In this document: positions 14,099 through 23,806 of the stretch, one piece after another
Layout of the letters: the number at the start of each line of letters is the position of its first letter
How positions within the stretch are numbered: the stretch's first letter is position 1
DNA from: Ferrimonas marina
Lineage (GTDB): Bacteria; Pseudomonadota; Gammaproteobacteria; Enterobacterales; Shewanellaceae
DNA: 64,000 nucleotides
Assembly: GCF_900129905.1 (NCBI RefSeq)
Contig: NZ_FQXG01000001.1
Span: 620,001-684,000, forward strand
Reading direction: 5' to 3'
Made by a program: the position numbers and the translations under genes
The notes under the pieces: generated by a model
What the model was told of the DNA's origin: nothing
The model's database searches: none
The model's input: the letters and a program-made list of their open reading frames with translations, nothing else

Positions 14099-14815
14099 AT
14101 GCCCCTAACCATCCTCTACCAAGACGCCCACCTTGTCGCCATCAACAAACCGGCAGGGACACTGGTGCACCGGGGGGAGCGGGCCAGCCACGGACGCCAC
14201 CCCATTCTGCAGCAGCTGCGGGACCAGATCGGCCAAACCCTCTACCCGGTTCACCGACTGGATAAAGCCACCTCCGGGGTGCTGCTGTTTGCCCTGGACA
14301 GCGATACCGCCTCCCGGCTGGTCAAGCAGTGGGGTGAGGTGAACAAGCGCTACCTGGCGGTGGTCCGCGGCCATCTGCAGGACACCCTGCTGGATCTGCC
14401 GTTGGCACCGCCGCGGGATCGTTTCGATCCCAACTGGACACCGGGCCCGGAGAAGCCGGCCCAAACCCGCTTTACCTGCCTGGCCCAGGCCGAGCTGGCC
14501 ATCGCCATCGATAAGTACCCCAGCTCACGCTATTCGCTGGTGTGCTGTGAGCCGCTGACAGGGCGCAAACACCAGATCCGCCGGCACCTGCGCCATCTGG
14601 GCCATCCTATCCTGTGCGATACCCGCTACGGCAAGAACCGTCACTACCACTACTTTCGCGATCACTTCGGCATCAACCGGATGCTGCTGCATTGTCAGCA
14701 ACTGCAGTTAACTCACCCGGTTAGCAAGGCCTCGCTGGTCATTGAGGCGCCACTGGATGACCTGTTTCAATCAGCGCTGGCGCGGCTGGATTGGAGTCAG
14801 CACCGGCCAGGCTAA
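14099..14815 (+). CDS. truC: tRNA pseudouridine synthase TruC-like (RluA family)
   Basis: The 238-residue protein starts ILYQDAHLVAINKPAG, typical for TruC. It carries the catalytic motif HRLDKATSGVLLFAL, where the Asp is the nucleophile, and then GRKHQIRRHLRHLGHPILCD. TruC makes pseudouridine 65 in certain tRNAs. No S4 domain is present, which separates it from RluC/RluD. Its stop codon overlaps that of iadA on the other strand. Confidence 0.9.
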   Translation: MPLTILYQDAHLVAINKPAGTLVHRGERASHGRHPILQQLRDQIGQTLYPVHRLDKATSGVLLFALDSDTASRLVKQWGEVNKRYLAVVRGHLQDTLLDLPLAPPRDRFDPNWTPGPEKPAQTRFTCLAQAELAIAIDKYPSSRYSLVCCEPLTGRKHQIRRHLRHLGHPILCDTRYGKNRHYHYFRDHFGINRMLLHCQQLQLTHPVSKASLVIEAPLDDLFQSALARLDWSQHRPG

Positions 14816-15975
14816 AACGGCTCGGTGACCAGCGCCCGGCCCTGTTGCACCATCGCCTTGCCGCCACACCACAACGCCTGCACCGCCAGACTGTCCCGCT
14901 CCAGCAACAACAGGTCAGCGCGCAACCCCGGCGCCAACCGGCCGCGATCAGCCAAGCCCAACACGGTAGCAGGATTGCGACTAACACAGGCCAACACCTG
15001 CTCAAGCGGCACGCCCAGCTCATGGGCTGCCACTACCGCCTGGTGCAAGCTGGCCACCCGCCCCACCTGCAGACCCTGGTAGCGGCCATCGGCATCAAAA
15101 CTGGGCAGCGAGGCGTTGCCATCGGAGCTGAGGGTGACCCGCGAAGGCGACACCCCGGCGCTGAGCAGACGCCGCAGCGCCTCGGCCGCCGCCACCTCCC
15201 CCTGGGCCAGCAACTCCGGCGTGGTACTGGCAGTGATATCCAGCCAGCCGTCCGCCAGGCCAAACTCAATGGCCGATTGGAACACCGCCTCGGTGCGATT
15301 GACGTGGGTGGGATAGAACTGGGACAGCGGCAGGTTGCTCTGCGCCACGCTCTGGCGCAGCCACTCCAGTCCCGTGGGATCGTCGCCCAGATGGATAGAG
15401 ACCACCCCCGCCTTACCGGAAAGCAGGCCGCCGGTGCGCGCCTGGCTGGCCAGGCGGATCAGCTCCTGGGGAGATGGGTGACTGCTGCGGTGATCCGCGA
15501 TGGCCACCTCCCCGACACCCAAACAGGGCTCCAGCAGCATCACATCCTCGCTGACGTCCGCCAGCAGGGTGCGTACCGGGACCTGGTAGCCACCGGTGTA
15601 GAAGAAGCAGCCCAGCCCCAACTGACGCAGGGCGTAACACTTGGCGATCAGATCCGGCAGGGTGCGGCTGATGGCGTCGGTCCCCAGCGCCCCCACCACG
15701 GTACTGACCCCCGCCAGGGTGGCTTCGGTCAGGGCCATGGCCGGAGTGCGGGTATGGAATCCCCCTTCCCCACCGCCCCCGGTGATGTGCACCAGGGAAT
15801 CGATAAAGCCCGGGCAGGCGATAAGACCGTTGCCCTCCACCGTCTCCAGCGGCACCGAGCCGGTCAATCGGATCTGTGGTGCCATCGCCTCAATCTGGCC
15901 ATTAGCCAGCAGCAGATCCTGACGCCCCATGGGCTCAGGGGCGAACACCTCAACATTTCGGATCAGGGTCAACAT
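14812..15975 (-). CDS. iadA: Isoaspartyl dipeptidase (beta-aspartyl peptidase, IadA-like)
   Basis: The 387-residue amidohydrolase matches IadA, which hydrolyses beta-aspartyl dipeptides and, in cyanophycin users, beta-Asp-Arg. Family landmarks are HITGGGGEGGFHTRTP, STVVGALGTDAISR, ADHRSSHPS, SIHLGDD, PTHVNR and TLSSDGNAS (metal Asp). Oddly, the first metal motif reads DSLVH where E. coli has DQHVH, so one metal-ligand His is missing. The segment before ADHR has Glu where the carboxylated Lys is expected (alignment from memory). The start at 15975 overlaps the permease stop as TGATG, so the two are one operon. Confidence 0.88.
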   Translation of the reverse strand: MLTLIRNVEVFAPEPMGRQDLLLANGQIEAMAPQIRLTGSVPLETVEGNGLIACPGFIDSLVHITGGGGEGGFHTRTPAMALTEATLAGVSTVVGALGTDAISRTLPDLIAKCYALRQLGLGCFFYTGGYQVPVRTLLADVSEDVMLLEPCLGVGEVAIADHRSSHPSPQELIRLASQARTGGLLSGKAGVVSIHLGDDPTGLEWLRQSVAQSNLPLSQFYPTHVNRTEAVFQSAIEFGLADGWLDITASTTPELLAQGEVAAAEALRRLLSAGVSPSRVTLSSDGNASLPSFDADGRYQGLQVGRVASLHQAVVAAHELGVPLEQVLACVSRNPATVLGLADRGRLAPGLRADLLLLERDSLAVQALWCGGKAMVQQGRALVTEPF

Positions 15976-17426
15976 CAGTGGTATCCTCCCAACGCCGCCG
16001 CCATCACTACAAGGGTGGCCAGCAGCATCACCAGGCCCATTAGCGGACCAACAAATCTCAACCAAACGCCCCAGGGAATGCGGGCCACGCCCAGACAGCC
16101 CACCAGCGAAGCAGAGGTGGGGATCACCACGTTGGTGAGGCCATCCCCCAATTGAAACGCCAGTACCGACAGCTGCCGGCTCAACCCCAGCAGATCCGCC
16201 AGCGGCGCCATCAAGGGCATGGTCAGCGCCGCCTGGCCGGAGCCGGAGGAGACCAGCAGGTTAAAGCCGGACTGGAACCAGAACATGGTCGCCGCCGCAG
16301 CCGCTGGACTGAGCGGCTCCAAGGCCTGTGCTGCGCTATTGAGCAGGGTATTGAGTACCGAGGGGCTGTCCGGCGCATCGCCCCCCAACAGCAGCACCAC
16401 CCCTTTGGCCAGGGCCACCACCAGCACCGCCGGCACCAGCGCCGCGGCCCCCTCAACAAAGCGATGAGACAAGGTGTTAAGGCTATCGTAGCGCCCGCCC
16501 AGCCGGGCCAGCAGCCCAACCACCATGGCGAGGGCAAAGAACTGGGCGGCGATCTGAGGCAGGTAGTAGCCCTCGGCCATCACCCCCCAGCAAACCCAGG
16601 CCAGCCCCGTTAGCACCAGCAACAGGATGGTGCTGTCCAGCCAGGTCACGGGCTCAGACTGTGCCTCCCCGGCCTGATCGCGCCAATAGGCGTCAGCCTG
16701 GTAGCTCAAGGATCGCTCGGGCGAGAGCCGAACCCGGCGACCGTGGCGCCAGACGAAGGCCATCCCCAGCAGGGTCAGCCCTAGCCACACGCCGATCCGC
16801 AGCGACGCCCCGCTGAGCAGCGGTAGCCCGGCAATACCCTGGGCGATGGCCACGCTGAACGGGTTCATCCAGCTGGCGGCAAAACCCAGTTGGGTGGCCA
16901 GGTAACAGCAAGCCACCGCACTGAGACTGTCATAGCCCAGCCGCACCAGGGTGGGAACCAGGATCATGCAAAAGGCGATCGCCTCCTCGCCCATGCCAAA
17001 CACCGCCCCGGCAAAGGAGAACAAGGCAAACAGCAGCGGCAGCAACAGATCCTGACCACGTCGTCCCCGGGCCACCGCCGCCAGTACCGCGCGATCGATG
17101 CTGCCGGTGCCCAGCAGCACCCCAAAGGCGCCGCCCACCACCAACAGAAAGCCCGCCACACCGACGGCACTGCCCCATTTGCTGCCGGACACCAGCCCCT
17201 CAAACAGCAGATTGGCCAAGCCGATTTGACCGTCCTCGGCGAACAACGGCATCGGGTTGGGCTGCCCCTGCAGCTGGAAACTCCCCGCCAGCAGCTGGCT
17301 ACCCTCCGGGCCTAACTCAAACTGGCCCGCCGGCACCACAAAGGTACAGAGCCAGGCCAAGACCCCGATCAAACACAACAGCACGGTGGCATCGGGCATC
17401 ACCGGCCCGGCACGCTCACTCATCAC
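15975..17426 (-). CDS. YfcC-family permease (DcuC/ArcD-like superfamily)
   Basis: The 483-residue inner-membrane protein has about twelve hydrophobic segments. It starts ATVLLCLIGVLAWLCTFVVPAGQFE, typical of YfcC, with the family loop GMGEEAIAFCMILVPTLVRLGYDS. SGSGQAALTMPLMAPLADLLGL and TNVVIPTSASLVG lie in the second half. YfcC proteins are thought to move basic amino acids or small peptides. Its overlap with iadA suggests it imports the dipeptide that IadA splits or exchanges a product. AAGGAG precedes the ATG. Confidence 0.85.
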   Translation of the reverse strand: MMSERAGPVMPDATVLLCLIGVLAWLCTFVVPAGQFELGPEGSQLLAGSFQLQGQPNPMPLFAEDGQIGLANLLFEGLVSGSKWGSAVGVAGFLLVVGGAFGVLLGTGSIDRAVLAAVARGRRGQDLLLPLLFALFSFAGAVFGMGEEAIAFCMILVPTLVRLGYDSLSAVACCYLATQLGFAASWMNPFSVAIAQGIAGLPLLSGASLRIGVWLGLTLLGMAFVWRHGRRVRLSPERSLSYQADAYWRDQAGEAQSEPVTWLDSTILLLVLTGLAWVCWGVMAEGYYLPQIAAQFFALAMVVGLLARLGGRYDSLNTLSHRFVEGAAALVPAVLVVALAKGVVLLLGGDAPDSPSVLNTLLNSAAQALEPLSPAAAAATMFWFQSGFNLLVSSGSGQAALTMPLMAPLADLLGLSRQLSVLAFQLGDGLTNVVIPTSASLVGCLGVARIPWGVWLRFVGPLMGLVMLLATLVVMAAALGGYH

Positions 17427-17442
17427 CCGCTCCTTTCAGGCA

Positions 17443-17470
17443 GACAAAAGAAGGGGGCCGGTCAGCCCCC
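17443..17470 (-). terminator. Terminator after the TonB-dependent receptor gene
   Basis: On the minus strand, GGGGGC, loop TGACCG, GCCCCC is followed by TTCTTTTGT. It lies 20 bp past the receptor stop and separates it from yfcC-iadA. Confidence 0.75.
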
Positions 17471-17489
17471 ATGCTTTGATGCTCCGCAC

Positions 17490-20303
17490 TCAGAAGCGGT
17501 AGGTGTAGCTGACGCGGTAGTAGCGGCCCAGGATGTCGTGATTGAACACATCGACGTTCTGGCTGCTGCCGTAGACCACCGGCGCATCACGGTCGAACAG
17601 GTTCTCCACCGCCAGGCGCAGGGTGTGGTGTTCACCCAGGTCATAGCCGACCTGGGCATTGACCTTGGTCCAGGAGGGGACTTCGCGATCCGCGCTGATC
17701 CCCAGCCGCTCCAGGTCAAAGTCACTGAGGGCGTCCAGATCGTTGTCCTCGTAGCCACTGGTGTAAAGCGCGGTCATCGAGCCAAACCAGTCGTTACGGG
17801 CAAAGCGCAGGGTGGCACTGGCCAGGGTCTCCGGGTACTGGTAGCTGCCCGCCAGCTCCTCCTCACCGACGCTGGCGCTCTTCTGCCGCTTGAAGGAGAG
17901 CACGTGGGTGATGTCGGACAGCAGGGTCCAATCTACCCCCAGCGCGGTGAAATCCTGGCTGTAGGTCAGGTCCAGGCCGTGGGTCTCCTGGGTGCCCAGG
18001 TTTTGCAGCTGCAGGTGCACGTCGCCGTCCACCACCAGCGGCGTCAACGGGTTGCCGCTGTCGTCACAACGCACCGGTACCCCTTGTGGGTTTTGCGCCG
18101 GGACGCTGTCGCAAGAGAGCAGGCTGGGATCCGCCAACGCCTGCAGCAGGGTGAACTCCGGATCCACCGCCACCAGCTGCTCGTGCTCGAAGCGCCAGTA
18201 GTCCAGGGTCAGGGTGATGTCGTCGGTGGGGCTCAGGGCGAAGCCGGCGTTGTAGGAGTCCGCCTCCTCCGCCTGCAGCTCGGCATTACCGAACTCAATG
18301 GTATCGATGGAGAAATCCGAGGCGCCATCGCAGTCGGCGTAGCCCTCGGCGATGCCGGACTTACACTCCACCACGGCGCTGGAGAGCTTCACCCCGGCGC
18401 CCACCTGGGCCAGCGAGGGGGCACGGAAGGAGGAGGCCCAGGAGGCCCGCAGCACCAGGCTGTCCAGCGGGCGGTAGCGCAGCCCCACCTTGGGATTGAA
18501 GTCGCCGCCGAAATCGCTGTAGTGGTCGTAACGGCCGGCCAGCTGCATATCCAGGCTATCGGCCAGCGGGATCTGGAATTCGCCGTACAGCGCCCAGGTG
18601 GTGCGATCCGCCTCCACCCGGGTGGAGCCAAAGCGGATCACCTCCGGCTGGAAGCCGTTCTCAAAGGTGCCCTCCGCCAGCTCCGAGGGGATATCCTCCA
18701 GCTCTTCCCGACGTACCTCGCCACCGAAGGCAGCGGAGATGACTCCCGCCTGCCACTGGGCCAGATCGCCGGACAGGTTGAAGTCCCAGCTGTAGAGGCT
18801 CGACTCACCGTTGCGCGGTACCTGTTCGTAGATCAGATCCCAGGCGGCGGGGTCATTGACGCCATCGCCGCGACCGGCCCAGGCATCGTAAGGGCTGATC
18901 AACAGCCCCTCGCCGGGCTCACAGATAGAGCCGTCGGTGCACAACGCGCCATTAAGCGCCGCCTCCAGCTTGCTGCGGCTGGCGATCCCGGCGCTGCCCA
19001 GCTGTTCCGATTCACTGCGGGAGGCCGACAGTGCGGTCTCCCAGATCCAACTGCCCAGATCGCCGCGCAAACCGGTCACCACACGCCAGGACTGGGTTTC
19101 ATTCTCCACCAGGCGGGTGTCCGGCAGACGGCCGTAGATCTGGAAGCTGTCGTCGATGATGCCGCCGAAGGCGTCCTCGTAGAAGTCCACGAACGCCTGG
19201 CCGATCGGGTTGATGCTGCCATCCTCGTTGGTCAGGGCGGGATGGAGCTGATCCGGATTGCGGGGGTCGAAGAACGGCACCTCGATGCCATTCAGTGGCG
19301 CCGAGCTGGACTCCCCCTGCCCCTTGGTCTGGGAGAACATCAACTCGGTAAACCATTCGGTGCCGTTATCGAAGCCGTAGTTGTAGGTGGCGCCAGCGCC
19401 CCACTGCTCAAAGGCAGGCTCATAGGGGCGGTACTGGTTGCTGTTGTAGGCACAGTACTCGAAGAATCGCTCCGCCGGGTGGTCCGCATCTCGGTCGTCA
19501 AAGCGGATATCGTCAGGACAGTTGGGATCCACCTTGTCCTTGGCCAGATCGAAGAACAGGGTATTGTAGCTGGCCCAGGCGTGTTGCTTGCTGGGGAAGA
19601 AGCTCTCGGCAGTCTGCTCCCGGTCCCTCAGGTAGGTGGCATTGCGGTCGTAGTAGTCGGCAAACAGGGTCAGGTTGCTGTTGCCAAAGTTCTTGCCCCA
19701 CACCAGGTTGAGGTTCTTCTTGCTGTCGTCGCTGCTGGCTTCGGAGTCGCCGTAGCTGACGTTGAGCTCAAAGCCCTCGTAATCCTTCTTGAGGATGTAG
19801 TTGATCACCCCGGCTACCGCATCGGCACCGTACAGCGCCGACGCCCCGGTAGGCAGGATCTCGATACGATCAATAGCCGCCAGGGGGATGGCGTTAATGT
19901 CGACGAAGTTCTCCGAGCCAAAGGCAAAGGAGCTGACCGATACCCGCCGCCCGTTGATCAGGGTCAGGGTGGAAGACGCCCCCAGCCCGCGCAGGGAGCC
20001 GGCGGCCTGGCCCGCCGGCGAACTGCCCGACAGGGCGCCAGAGGCGGAGGTGGAGAACGTACCGGTGCCGCCGCGGGTCTGGCCGACCTCACGCAGCAGC
20101 TCCGACACCGAGTTGGCGGAGGAGCTTTTGATGTCCTCCGCATCGATGGTGACCAGGGGCTGAGCACCCTCCAGATCGACCCCCTTGATGCGGGAGCCGG
20201 TCACCTCGATGCGTTCGGGGGTGGATTCCTCGGCCGCCAAGGCCTGGGCAAGCGGAGACAGAGCGAAGCCGGCGGCAGCCAGCAGCAGCAACGGATTGTT
20301 CAT
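17490..20303 (-). CDS. TonB-dependent outer-membrane receptor
   Basis: The 937-residue protein has a signal peptide (MNNPLLLLAAAGFALSPLAQALA). The plug domain follows (ERIEVTGSRIKG, GLGASSTLTLINGRRV, IDRIEILPTGASALYGADAVAGVINYILKK). A 22-strand-type beta-barrel ends in the terminal aromatic RVSYTYRF. Receptors of this GSRIKG type in marine gammaproteobacteria usually import peptides or other oligomers by TonB energy. Its place between iadA-yfcC and an exported cyanophycinase-like enzyme suggests it takes up oligopeptides released outside. AAGGAAG precedes the ATG. No SusD-like partner is seen. Confidence 0.92.
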   Translation of the reverse strand: MNNPLLLLAAAGFALSPLAQALAAEESTPERIEVTGSRIKGVDLEGAQPLVTIDAEDIKSSSANSVSELLREVGQTRGGTGTFSTSASGALSGSSPAGQAAGSLRGLGASSTLTLINGRRVSVSSFAFGSENFVDINAIPLAAIDRIEILPTGASALYGADAVAGVINYILKKDYEGFELNVSYGDSEASSDDSKKNLNLVWGKNFGNSNLTLFADYYDRNATYLRDREQTAESFFPSKQHAWASYNTLFFDLAKDKVDPNCPDDIRFDDRDADHPAERFFEYCAYNSNQYRPYEPAFEQWGAGATYNYGFDNGTEWFTELMFSQTKGQGESSSAPLNGIEVPFFDPRNPDQLHPALTNEDGSINPIGQAFVDFYEDAFGGIIDDSFQIYGRLPDTRLVENETQSWRVVTGLRGDLGSWIWETALSASRSESEQLGSAGIASRSKLEAALNGALCTDGSICEPGEGLLISPYDAWAGRGDGVNDPAAWDLIYEQVPRNGESSLYSWDFNLSGDLAQWQAGVISAAFGGEVRREELEDIPSELAEGTFENGFQPEVIRFGSTRVEADRTTWALYGEFQIPLADSLDMQLAGRYDHYSDFGGDFNPKVGLRYRPLDSLVLRASWASSFRAPSLAQVGAGVKLSSAVVECKSGIAEGYADCDGASDFSIDTIEFGNAELQAEEADSYNAGFALSPTDDITLTLDYWRFEHEQLVAVDPEFTLLQALADPSLLSCDSVPAQNPQGVPVRCDDSGNPLTPLVVDGDVHLQLQNLGTQETHGLDLTYSQDFTALGVDWTLLSDITHVLSFKRQKSASVGEEELAGSYQYPETLASATLRFARNDWFGSMTALYTSGYEDNDLDALSDFDLERLGISADREVPSWTKVNAQVGYDLGEHHTLRLAVENLFDRDAPVVYGSSQNVDVFNHDILGRYYRVSYTYRF

Positions 20304-20468
20304 GAGTTCTTCCTTGTGAGCCGGTCATCAAGACCGTCGGATCCGGACGCAACAAGGGCGCCGGGGATCCGCTTCCATCAAAATGGGTCTATCAAGGGGG
20401 GCATGGTTGACGCCCCCAAGCACGGGCGGACTGAACCTGGGTTCAGCCGATGGGCCTAGCACTTGGGG
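20304..20468 (-). other. Structured leader between the 24-codon mini-gene and the TonB receptor
   Basis: On the minus strand these 165 bases hold several hairpins: CTGAACC-CA-GGTTCAG, then GGGGGC-nine bases-GCCCCC, then CGGTC-TTGAT-GACCG just before the receptor ribosome site. None is followed by a T-run, so they look more like RNA-stability or regulatory structures than terminators. The role is unknown. Confidence 0.45.
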
Positions 20469-20543
20469 TTATTCGTCAAACCACTCACTGAGGTAGAAGC
20501 TCTCGAAGTAGTAGTTTGACAGTGACGCGGCGTTTTTGAGCAT
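20469..20543 (-). CDS. 24-codon mini-gene encoding an aromatic, acidic peptide
   Basis: An ATG at 20543 opens 24 codons ending in TAA. The product begins MLKNAASLS and ends NYYFESFYLSEWFDE: seven aromatic residues and five acidic residues in 15. AGGA lies 4 bases before the ATG, with a further AGGAAG upstream. It is the first reading frame in the transcript leading to the TonB receptor gene. It could be a leader peptide controlling the receptor, a precursor for modification, or a secreted signal. No known family is recognised. No Arg codons are present, so it is not a simple arginine attenuator. Confidence 0.5.
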   Translation of the reverse strand: MLKNAASLSNYYFESFYLSEWFDE

Positions 20544-20689
20544 GACGTCCTGTCTTCCTGAAATCCGGTAACGAGGCCGGTCTGGTGACCAGCGCCTATA
20601 AACGAATACCTGCTCGTTGACCCTGATGTCAATAGCATGTTACCGACTAGTAATAGATCGATAACCTGTTGTGCATAATGGATTTGTAA

Positions 20690-22372
20690 GTGAATAATCA
20701 TTCAAAACTCGGCTCTGCCGTGCTGCTGTCGCTGGCCCTGGTGGCGCCCCTCAGTGCGACCCAGGCTAATACCCTGTTCCTGGTCGGTGGCGGGATGAAA
20801 AGCTGCGCCAGCCAAAACCTGGCCGCCTGCAACGCCGCTGCCCTGCCCGTCAATCTCGCCGAGGGGTCACGAACGGGCCTGCGCTTCTCACTCAGCGACG
20901 ACAATCTGGCCCGTGCCAGTGCCGCCAATCACTGGCACTCGGCTGAGCACGCTAAACAGGCACTTCAGCAGCTGCAAAGGCTCGCCAAGCGGCTGGGAAC
21001 CGACCCCGTGAGCAAGTCGTCGCTGCAGCAGGCCCTGCGCGAGCAGGACGACAGCAACGACTGGTACCAAAGCCTGTCTGATCAGCAGTGGTACCTGCTG
21101 CTTGACCGGCTGGAAGCGCCCCAGCTCGATGACCAGGGCGAACGGCTCAAGGAAAGCACCTGGCTGCAGTACAACCGGGATCCGCACACGCCCCAGCTGG
21201 TCGCCCGCTTCACCGAGCTGGCCGCCAAAGCGGGTGACAAAGCCGATGGCGAAGCGCCGCTGCTGCTGGTGATGACCAGCAGCGCCCGCGACCCCTTCGA
21301 GGCCCATGACTTCTACCTCAGCCTGTTTGCCAGTGCCGGCGCCCAGGTTCGCTGGTTGCCGCTGGATGCCAGCGTCCAGGCGGCCCGCCGAGACCGCGCC
21401 TGCGACCAATTGCCCCGCTACCGAGAGCAGGTCCAGGGCAATGCCGAGCGCCAGCGGATCTACCCAAAGCTGGCCCAGGCTCAACGGGCTCACTGCCAAC
21501 AGCCGCAGTTAGGCCTGGAGCTGCTGGCCCAGGCGGATGGCCTGTTCATCAATGGCGGCGATCAGTGGCTGACCTGGCAGGCACTGCGCCACCCCGATGG
21601 CGGCGATACCCCGGAGCTTGCGCTGATCAAACAGCGAGTGGCCAAGGGCACTCTGGTGGTGGGCGGCACCAGTGCCGGTACCGCGGTGCAAGCCAGTGGC
21701 GTGATGATTAGCAATGGCAGCAACCTCAGCGCCCTGCGCGATGGCCCTGTCGATGCACCGCCACCGGCCCGGGATTGCGACGGCGGCCCGGCTTGCGATG
21801 GACTGGCCGGCGACCAACTGACCTTTAACCCACAAGGTGGACTGGGCCTGTTCATCCCGGGCCTGACCGACACCCACTTCTCCGAGCGAGGTCGACAGCT
21901 GCGCCTGGCCATCCTGGCCAACCAGACACAGGTGCCTATCGCCGTGGGGGTCGACGAAAACACCGCACTGGAGGTGAGCGGCAACCGTTGGCAGGTGTTG
22001 GGTCAAGGGGGCGTTTGGATTTGGCAAAGCGCGCTGCAGCGCAGCCACTACCTGCGCCCCGGGGACACGGCTACGTGGCAGGCCGACACCCTGGCCGTCG
22101 AGCTGGGTCAGGTCAATTCCGGCCCCCACCCGGGCCCCTCCATCGAGCAATCCGTGCAGCTGGATACCGATCAGATCCATCAACTGGCCCAGCAACTCTG
22201 TCAGCAACAAGGCACCCTGGCGCAGGGGCATATCGACCTCGGGGACAGTGCCCTGTTGGTCTCCCTCAAAGCCGATGGGCAAACCCACTTTTCGCCGGAT
22301 CCCTCCGGCTGCAGCTACCGGGATCTGAGCCTCAGTATCGTGCCTTACCCCATCAGCCAAGAGGATGATTAG
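20690..22372 (+). CDS. Exported cyanophycinase-family peptidase (S51)
   Basis: The 560-residue protein begins with a signal peptide ending near ATQANT. The S51 fold starts with LFLVGGGMKSC. The nucleophile motif is TLVVGGTSAGTAVQ (Ser in GTSAG). TDTHFSERGRQLRLAI and AVGVDENTALEV are the other S51 signatures. Cyanophycinases cut the cyanophycin backbone to beta-Asp-Arg dipeptides. At 560 residues it is about twice the size of intracellular CphB, with insertions between the first strand and the Ser motif and a C-terminal extension. Start is a GTG with a weak ribosome site, overlapped by an ArgR-type palindrome. It diverges from the mini-gene and receptor. Confidence 0.88.
   Translation: MNNHSKLGSAVLLSLALVAPLSATQANTLFLVGGGMKSCASQNLAACNAAALPVNLAEGSRTGLRFSLSDDNLARASAANHWHSAEHAKQALQQLQRLAKRLGTDPVSKSSLQQALREQDDSNDWYQSLSDQQWYLLLDRLEAPQLDDQGERLKESTWLQYNRDPHTPQLVARFTELAAKAGDKADGEAPLLLVMTSSARDPFEAHDFYLSLFASAGAQVRWLPLDASVQAARRDRACDQLPRYREQVQGNAERQRIYPKLAQAQRAHCQQPQLGLELLAQADGLFINGGDQWLTWQALRHPDGGDTPELALIKQRVAKGTLVVGGTSAGTAVQASGVMISNGSNLSALRDGPVDAPPPARDCDGGPACDGLAGDQLTFNPQGGLGLFIPGLTDTHFSERGRQLRLAILANQTQVPIAVGVDENTALEVSGNRWQVLGQGGVWIWQSALQRSHYLRPGDTATWQADTLAVELGQVNSGPHPGPSIEQSVQLDTDQIHQLAQQLCQQQGTLAQGHIDLGDSALLVSLKADGQTHFSPDPSGCSYRDLSLSIVPYPISQEDD
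20691..20704. promoter_or_regulatory. ArgR-type operator (ARG box) over the cyanophycinase start
   Basis: TGAATAATCATTCA is a perfect palindrome and a full match to the ArgR core TGAATnnnnATTCA. It covers the last two bases of the GTG start and codons 2-5. A weaker second half-match (TGCATAATGGATTT, 20672-20685) lies upstream. Control by arginine would suit an enzyme releasing arginine-containing dipeptides. Confidence 0.6.
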
Positions 22373-22461
22373 TCACCTTAAGTGACTGTTCATTCGAGCA
22401 CTTTCGCTTGCGTGTCGAGTCTGGCATGTTATGGGTTTGCCCCATTCTGAAGGATTAGAAG

Positions 22462-23745
22462 ATGAAAACTCGCGTTGCGCTGGCCCTGGCGGCCCAGCTG
22501 GTTGTGACCGCCCCGGCCTGGGCCCAGCAGACCCTGATCCACGCCGGTAGCCTGATCGACGGCGTTAATGACGCCGCTCGCCAACGGGTCTCGGTGGTGG
22601 TGGAAGACAACCGCATCGTCGCCATCGAAAGCGGCTTTGTCGATGCCCAGGCCAGCCAGCAGCTGATCGACCTGTCGGACTACACCCTGATGCCCGGCTT
22701 GATGGACATGCACACCCACGTCGATGGGGTCACCAACGCCGAGAGCTACACCGAGGGCTTTTTCAAAGACCCGGCCTATTTTGCCCTGCGTGCCACCACC
22801 TACGCCGAGGCCACCCTGATGGCGGGCTTCACCACGGTGCGAAACCTCGGCGGTGACGTCAGCCTGGCGATGCGCGATGCCATCAACGAAGGGCATATCC
22901 AGGGTCCGCGGATCTACGCCGCCGGTAAGTCGATCGCCACCACCGGTGGCCATGCCGATCCCACCAACGGCATCAACCGTCACCTGCGCACGCTGGAGGG
23001 GGATCCCACCCCGGAACGCGGCGTGATCAACGGCCCCTACCAGGCCCGTCAAGCGGTGCGCCAGCGCTACAAGGAGGGCTCTGACGTGATCAAGTTGACG
23101 GTAACCGGCGGGGTGTTGAGCCTGGCCAAGAGTGGCCACAACCCGCAGTTCATGGACGATGAGCTGGAAGGGATCATGGACGCGGCCAAGGACTACGGCT
23201 TTGTCGTGGCGGTGCATGCCCACGGAGCCGAGGGGATGAAGCGGGCGGTGAAGGCCGGGGTGCATTCGGTTGAACACGGCACCTTTATGGACGACGAGGT
23301 GATGGCGCTGATGAAGCAGCACGGCACCTATTATGTCCCCACCATCACCGCCGGTCGCTGGGTGGCCGAGCATGCCGATCAATACCCCGCCATTGTTCAG
23401 CCCAAGGCGCGCCTGGTGGGGCCGCAGATCCAGAAGACCTTCGCCAAGGCTTACGCCGCAGGCGTGCCCATCGCCTTCGGCACCGATGCCGGGGTGTTTC
23501 CCCATGGCCTCAATGGCCGCGAGTTCGGCTACATGGTCGAGGCAGGCATGCCCGCCATGGCCGCGATCCAGTCCGCCACTATGGGCGGTGCCCGCTTGCT
23601 GCGCATCGACCAGGAGTTGGGCTCGGTGGAGGTGGGTAAGCTGGCAGATCTGGTGGCGGTAAAGGGCAACCCACTGGAGCAGATCAGTCTGATGGAATCG
23701 GTCACGTTCGTGATGAAGGATGGCGAGGTGGTCAAAGCTCCCTAG
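22462..23745 (+). CDS. Exported amidohydrolase, Xaa-Arg/Xaa-Pro dipeptidase type
   Basis: The 427-residue protein has a signal peptide ([21 protein letters not shown]) and an amidohydrolase barrel. [11 protein letters not shown] gives the HxH metal motif, and [10 protein letters not shown] holds the lysine expected to be carboxylated. AVHAHG and SVEHGTF give the next His ligands, and [11 protein letters not shown] the metal Asp. Periplasmic members of this group studied elsewhere hydrolyse L-Xaa-L-Arg/Lys or Xaa-Pro dipeptides. It follows the cyanophycinase gene by 89 bp in the same direction and probably acts on its products or similar peptides. Hydrolysis of beta-Asp-Arg itself is not established. 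Confidence 0.85.
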
Positions 23746-23781: not shown

Positions 23782-23806
23782 GCGGCAGGCCCACTCGGCC
23801 TGCCGC
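23782..23806 (+). terminator. Terminator-like hairpin after the amidohydrolase gene
   Basis: GCGGCAGGC, loop CCACTCG, GCCTGCCGC, followed by CATTATTTA. The stem is strong but the T-run is poor. It marks the right end of the putative cyanophycin locus. Confidence 0.5.

Follow-up and report, generated by a model that had tools for sequence, protein, structure and literature searches.

A putative cyanophycin scavenging cassette with an exported S51 peptidase, a TonB-dependent receptor, YfcC and an LxH-type isoaspartyl dipeptidase in Ferrimonas and other Gammaproteobacteria

Genes of the locus and their conservation

We analysed a 64-kb stretch of DNA (the window) that forms part of the 4.98-Mb genome of Ferrimonas marina (the host), and within it a divergent locus that probably serves to scavenge cyanophycin. 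The minus strand (14812–20303) carries genes for an isoaspartyl dipeptidase (IadA), a YfcC permease and a TonB-dependent receptor, and the plus strand (20690–23745) carries the gene for a peptidase of family S51 followed by an amidohydrolase gene (Table 1). A first-pass annotation of this DNA had named an S51 gene with a signal peptide, the receptor, YfcC and IadA, and all are present, the genes by family match and the signal peptide as judged by eye. YfcC scored 592.9 bits against NF008611 (family cut-off 500) and IadA 424 bits against TIGR01975 (cut-off 331.25). The S51 protein exceeded the gathering score of Pfam Peptidase_S51 (26.1 versus 23.9 bits), and its N-terminus resembles a Sec signal peptide by eye. 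The receptor matched 23 general receptor models, each below its cut-off. An Rfam scan of the window returned zero matches at gathering score.

The IadA start is likely the ATG at 15975, giving 387 residues. The overlap between IadA and YfcC described earlier therefore exists, but as a single base shared by the YfcC stop and the IadA start at TGATG (..CACTGATG..), not as the 91 bases that a TTG-started IadA frame would give.

Table 1 Features of the locus, with positions in the window
Feature	Position	Strand	Description
S51 peptidase with signal peptide	20690..22372	+	560 aa, predicted cyanophycinase; triad Ser328/His396/Glu423
TonB-dependent outer-membrane receptor	17490..20303	-	937 aa, plug and barrel; divergent from S51
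YfcC permease, DcuC family	15975..17426	-	Predicted inner-membrane carrier of beta-Asp-Arg or its amino acids
IadA isoaspartyl dipeptidase	14812..15975	-	387 aa from ATG; Leu61 replaces first His of HxH
Divergent intergenic region, receptor to S51	20304..20689	.	386 bases
Exported amidohydrolase, Xaa-Pro/Xaa-Arg type	22462..23745	+	Downstream of S51; outside conserved cassette
Terminator-like hairpin after amidohydrolase gene	23782..23806	+	Weak evidence
ARG-box-like palindrome TGAATAATCATTCA over S51 start codon	20691..20704	.	Possible ArgR site

An order-level search for S51 relatives covered 295 genomes and gave matches in 46. From the matches with E <= 2e-28 we took 30 neighbourhoods, excluding the host's own and leaving out short, weak matches (E 5e-5 to 9e-4), and we added 5 from 14 genomes of the genus, for a total of 35. 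The motifs of the catalytic triad are intact in 25 of these, and 22 of the 25 carry the receptor, YfcC and IadA together; two others carry YfcC and IadA, and the last, at a contig end, carries the receptor and a YfcC fragment. Cassette genes thus adjoin 25/25 triad-intact S51 genes, versus 0/10 homologues in which the triad is dead. The triad-dead homologues (L060, L067–L072, L109–L111) have lost the catalytic Ser and kept two N-terminal cysteines, and His and Glu are gone as well except in L060. Four of their ten neighbourhoods belong to Ferrimonas genomes that lack the cassette.

A wider scan drew on the best 80 of 452 S51 relatives, a choice that favours close kin; its sample and the order-level and genus sample are partly the same DNA. 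Seven of the 80 loci, with less than 7.4 kb of left flank, were set aside, and among the 73 counted we scored a partner as present when it matched the window's protein with at least 100 bits. Co-occurrence of the four genes, which had been set beforehand as a test of the locus, held up: receptor, YfcC and IadA are all present in 56/73 loci, and 12 more have partial sets (7 YfcC and IadA, 3 receptor and IadA, 1 IadA, 1 receptor and YfcC). In most loci the receptor gene is transcribed away from S51 and precedes yfcC-iadA. The genera that carry the cassette include Shewanella, Rheinheimera, Colwellia, Thalassotalea, Idiomarina, Pseudoalteromonas and Wenzhouxiangella. Of the 14 Ferrimonas genomes, the three that have a full-length triad-bearing S51 (the host, G306 and G297) are also the three with a full IadA. 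The gene set is more conserved than is visible from one window.

Pairs of YfcC and IadA with neither receptor nor S51 nearby were seen at L112 and L121 (genomes G146 and G193, genus g2); the pair in G193 is a second copy, and a full cassette sits on another contig of that genome. Viral contigs scanned with the S51 protein yielded zero relatives.

The S51 peptidase and its probable substrate

Residues Q292, S328, D394, T395, H396, R400, R402, R405 and E423 are invariant across 20 aligned S51 proteins. Their equivalents in the aligned chains of solved cyanophycinases are, in the same order, Q101, S132, D172, Q173, H174, R178, R180, R183 and E201, so that Thr395 for Gln173 is the sole difference in the triad and pocket. 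CphE, the secreted cyanophycinase of Pseudomonas, has the same triad and pocket set, with Thr likewise replacing Gln173, and shares the S51 family and a Sec signal with the host protein; compared by its description in the available text, its 1260-bp gene encodes 419 residues, versus 560 here (PMC3235067). For 70 of the best 80 relatives the S51 frame was complete, with an ATG in range; 68 of them contain all four motif patterns, and the other two miss one pattern, around Glu423.

Searched against solved chains, the S51 family profile matched cyanophycinases with E-values of 3e-24 to 5e-22; the values for an aspartyl dipeptidase and a cyanophycinase-like exopeptidase were 5e-4 and 6e-4, respectively. 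The host protein lies under the cut-off of the PepE aspartyl dipeptidase model (NF003642, 23.6 versus 156 bits). Its predicted structure has a mean predicted local distance difference test score (pLDDT) of 90.9, and the top Foldseek match of this model is the cyanophycinase 7uqw (E 1.7e-12; template-modelling (TM) score 0.72 by target and 0.35 by query; root-mean-square deviation 5.4). Cyanophycinases, including pseudo-CphB, matched at 1e-12 to 3e-11, with TM scores of 0.70–0.74 by target and 0.34–0.36 by query, followed by 6nqc (2.6e-8) and then PepE-type folds (7e-7 to 2.5e-6). In the model, then, the catalytic core has the cyanophycinase fold. Because the TM score by query is low and the sequence alignments to solved chains start at about residue 185 and stop at about 445, we take the comparison to suggest that a helical stretch from about 50 to 185 and a C-terminal beta part of 100 residues are additions to this core. 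Both the solved chains and CphE are smaller than this S51 type.

No cyanophycin synthetase match in the host exceeds the cut-off (best score 54.6 bits versus 850), and CphA over cut-off is absent from 26 of 27 cassette genomes, two of the 26 being only 88% and 60% complete. Lack of the synthetase marks the cassette hosts as probable scavengers rather than storers of cyanophycin. In G292, a cyanophycin synthetase (1125.6 bits) with an adjoining short S51 hit lies on a contig other than that of the cassette (L271, G292:C35), and this organism is possibly storer and scavenger in one cell.

Since the S51 protein shares triad, pocket residues and predicted fold with cyanophycinases, the gene set is conserved and a synthetase over cut-off is lacking, we consider it probable that the locus is a cassette for scavenging cyanophycin, as the earlier annotation had proposed in outline. 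Following this logic, the S51 peptidase would leave the cytoplasm through Sec and cut cyanophycin to beta-Asp-Arg in the periplasm or outside the cell. Release from the cell is possible, given that the host encodes a type II secretin (525.9 bits, cut-off 351.35). Pieces of cyanophycin or the dipeptide would then cross the outer membrane through the TonB receptor, and the dipeptide or its amino acids would cross the inner membrane through YfcC. In the cytosol, IadA would cleave beta-Asp-Arg to Asp and Arg; since an alpha-site ligand is lost, it probably holds one zinc only, at the beta site (see below).

Several observations weigh against this proposal. The S51 protein falls under the equivalog cut-off for cyanophycinase (TIGR02069, 89.8 versus 126.6 bits), and it is longer by about 270–285 residues than the solved cyanophycinase chains (275–291 aa); its substrate could therefore have shifted. 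Five of the 73 loci in the wider scan show no partner within the flank, beyond which no search was made, and the remaining 68 include loci that have no match to the receptor (8), YfcC (4) or IadA (1). Beta-Asp-Arg should fit through porins, which leaves the need for a TonB receptor unexplained. The cassette IadA lacks a metal ligand, and IadA enzymes are promiscuous for beta-aspartyl dipeptides, according to the available text of PMC10206079. With such promiscuity, the cassette might scavenge isoaspartyl peptides generally, from the aged protein of dead biomass; the S51 protein would then act as an exo-peptidase on such material, releasing beta-aspartyl dipeptides, and cyanophycin would be only one source. 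The S51 family does include aspartyl dipeptidases, and the shortfall against the cyanophycinase model fits such a role. However, the arginine-rich cyanophycinase pocket is invariant in the 20 aligned proteins, and the profile E-values are 18 to 20 orders better for cyanophycinase than for aspartyl dipeptidase, so we regard general isoaspartyl scavenging as unlikely.

The receptor might also take other cargo, for example a siderophore, and adjoin S51 for regulatory or historical reasons. That none of its 23 model matches reached a cut-off would be compatible with this, as would the 7/73 loci of the wider scan that have S51, YfcC and IadA and no receptor match in the flank. Its arrangement in most loci, divergent from S51 and ahead of yfcC-iadA, argues together with a receptor match in 60/73 for a part in the same system, and we consider unrelated cargo quite improbable.

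Systems of this kind are already known. Cyanophycin utilization loci with a cyanophycinase, iadA and a transporter were described by Ben Hania et al., as cited in PMC10206079, and in genomes without CphA the cyanophycinase gene is clustered with iaaA or iadA in 45/52 cases, as given in the available text of the same source. The present locus likewise clusters an isoaspartyl dipeptidase gene with one whose product resembles cyanophycinase in residues and fold, and it has transporters in the cluster, YfcC over its cut-off and the TonB receptor. It differs from the loci known through that citation in the combination of a TonB receptor with YfcC, the long, divergent S51, the occurrence in Gammaproteobacteria and an IadA in which the HxH motif reads LxH. 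A TonB-dependent transporter near a cyanophycinase gene, with cyanophycin as its proposed substrate, has been noted in Citromicrobium sp. JLT1363, another genus; the accessible part of that report mentions neither YfcC nor an isoaspartyl dipeptidase (PMC3400609). A secreted putative cyanophycinase of Pseudoalteromonas tunicata (PMC2536512) and a Thalassotalea cyanophycinase read as serving the use of extracellular cyanophycin (PMC7564069) are likewise on record in the text available for each. We found no description of the YfcC-containing set or of an LxH IadA in the literature searched, whose coverage leaves most subscription journals outside and which included the available text of the IadA structure paper PMC5517026; within the searchable literature, this variant is not described.

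If the cyanophycin reading is true, recycling of cyanobacterial nitrogen through the cassette may be widespread among Gammaproteobacteria (Shewanella, Rheinheimera, Idiomarina, Colwellia, Pseudoalteromonas and others). It would also supply a candidate cargo for YfcC, which NCBI annotates only as a putative antiporter, and for a group of TonB receptors.

A lost metal ligand in the cassette IadA

Characterized IadAs hold two zincs, in part through an HxH motif (H68/H70 in Escherichia coli, H64/H66 in Leucothrix mucor; PMC10206079, available text), and three solved IadA chains that we aligned have His at both places. The host IadA reads DSLVH, with Leu61 in place of the first His. The same Leu was found in 96/96 IadA rows from long-S51 loci (85 distinct), and its presence means that an alpha-metal ligand of the cassette IadA is gone. 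A sequencing error was ruled out as the source, as the codon, CTG, is two changes from a His codon and the Leu recurs in 104/104 rows of the Leu group, from many genera.

Among 23 IadA rows from elsewhere, 15 have His and 8 have Leu (G146, the second copy of G193, G051, G003, G029, G009, G034 and G1020). The 19 kb examined for these 8 Leu loci contain no match to S51, so LxH is not exclusive to the cassette; YfcC is present in 2 of the 8. Nine of the 15 His loci carry a short S51 match, and six of those nine lie at most 4 kb from a cyanophycinase gene over cut-off. In a tree of 85 IadA rows (70 Leu and 15 His), the Leu rows form one side of one branch, also when the column itself is masked (99% by the Shimodaira–Hasegawa-like approximate likelihood ratio test, SH-aLRT, by a quick method). 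Other marks of the Leu group are A85, Y221, S250, T251, G259 and A288. At L119 and L120 (G034 and G009), the LxH IadA gene stands last after what appear by eye to be genes of an amino-acid ATP-binding cassette (ABC) transporter (ATPase, binding protein and two permeases), a different partner for this IadA variant.

An alignment of 12 cassette IadAs shows no variation at the remaining ligands (H63, E156, H195, H224 and D285) or at the substrate residues E70, T99, Y130, R163, R227 and S289. For D285, Y130, R163 and S289, the roles follow work on the E. coli enzyme. The roles of the other ligands and those of E70, T99 and R227 are given in the available text of PMC10206079. The E. coli and L. mucor IadAs described there share the family model and substrate-binding residues with the cassette enzyme and keep the first His of HxH where the cassette IadA has Leu; the cassette enzyme resembles L. 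mucor IadA in having Glu in place of the carboxylated Lys.

One explanation would be that the cassette IadA is no longer a peptidase and acts as a binding protein or regulator, with YfcC moving free amino acids after hydrolysis elsewhere. Leu in all cassette rows fits this explanation, and so does the Leu group's lack of a fixed His, Asp, Glu or Cys that could stand in for the lost ligand. In the related amidohydrolase NagA, mutants of the binuclear mycobacterial enzyme point the same way, AXA being inactive and QXN weaker, as given in the available text of PMC6016474. The invariance of the other ligands and substrate residues nevertheless speaks against a loss of peptidase activity, as does E. 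coli NagA, which is mononuclear with QxN in place of HxH, as reported in the same source; we rate such a loss as quite unlikely. Glu/His/His sites have also been reported in the NagA family (accessible text of PMC12017989).

Given that the alpha ligand is lost, that other catalytic and substrate residues are kept and that E. coli NagA is mononuclear without HxH, we predict by analogy that the cassette IadA is a NagA-like isoaspartyl dipeptidase with one metal, at the beta site. The parallel has limits: NagA, whose mononuclear state is established where that of the cassette IadA is predicted, catalyses another reaction, belongs to another subfamily and has QxN rather than LxH (PMC6016474, available text). 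The cassette IadA would be a natural case of a binuclear amidohydrolase that lost a ligand and kept its other known active-site residues. A wider proposition, to which we give slightly less than even credence, is that IadAs with a single metal form a branch with one origin in Gammaproteobacteria, that TonB/YfcC cyanophycin uptake uses no other kind, that HxH and two metals were retained in the IadAs next to short cyanophycinases of the cytoplasmic type, and that YfcC is the inner-membrane carrier of beta-Asp-Arg.

The neighbouring amidohydrolase and candidate regulatory sites

The first-pass annotation had extended the locus to 23.8 kb by including an exported Xaa-Arg/Xaa-Pro dipeptidase. The gene is there: it scores 183.9 bits against Amidohydro_1 and, below cut-off, 390.5 versus 500 against the Xaa-Pro dipeptidase model NF051886; its product carries a signal peptide, and its nearest solved chains, 2qs8 the best of them, place it in the Xaa-Pro/Xaa-Arg group. 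Relatives mostly do not keep it in this position. The two other Ferrimonas cassettes lack it, and it was found near S51, in about 20 kb examined for each, in 2 of the best 80 relatives (L148 and L208) and in 1 of the 35 order and genus neighbourhoods (L063). We therefore ruled it out as a cassette member; the amidohydrolase is at most accessory. The hairpin downstream of it counts as weak evidence for a terminator, because terminator-like sites across the region (6) are about as many as in shuffles (5.6).

Over the S51 start codon lies the palindrome TGAATAATCATTCA, which fits the consensus of an ARG box. ARG-box scores at the S51 start are 25 of 26 in two Ferrimonas cassettes and 22 in the third. 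A strict pattern misses the site in the window, owing to its C, and with the looser pattern TGAATNNNNATTCA the host genome has 5 sites, versus 1 for a control pattern. By eye, a Gate-domain gene follows one of the four other sites, and arginine biosynthesis genes adjoin none of them. Across 79 divergent regions, some counted twice as the same DNA, the best site reached p <= 0.05 in 10, versus about 4 expected (60 shuffles each), and we rejected ArgR control of the whole cassette family as unsupported outside Ferrimonas. For Ferrimonas only, the sequences are suggestive of arginine control; because the palindrome shares bases with the coding sequence, it could reflect conservation of an N-terminal peptide. 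An omp gene is among the taxon-specific ArgR targets in the available text of PMC5343134, and the cassette genes are not named in that of PMC3223726.

Two minor features were also observed. The site before the Gate-domain gene noted above, L268 (G000:C18:127307-127320), is a perfect ARG-box-like palindrome just upstream of this 463-aa frame, which reads as YjiH-like. On the minus strand of the window, a terminator-like hairpin, of a type no more frequent here than in shuffles, lies at 17453–17470 between the receptor gene and yfcC and could reduce expression of yfcC-iadA relative to the receptor.

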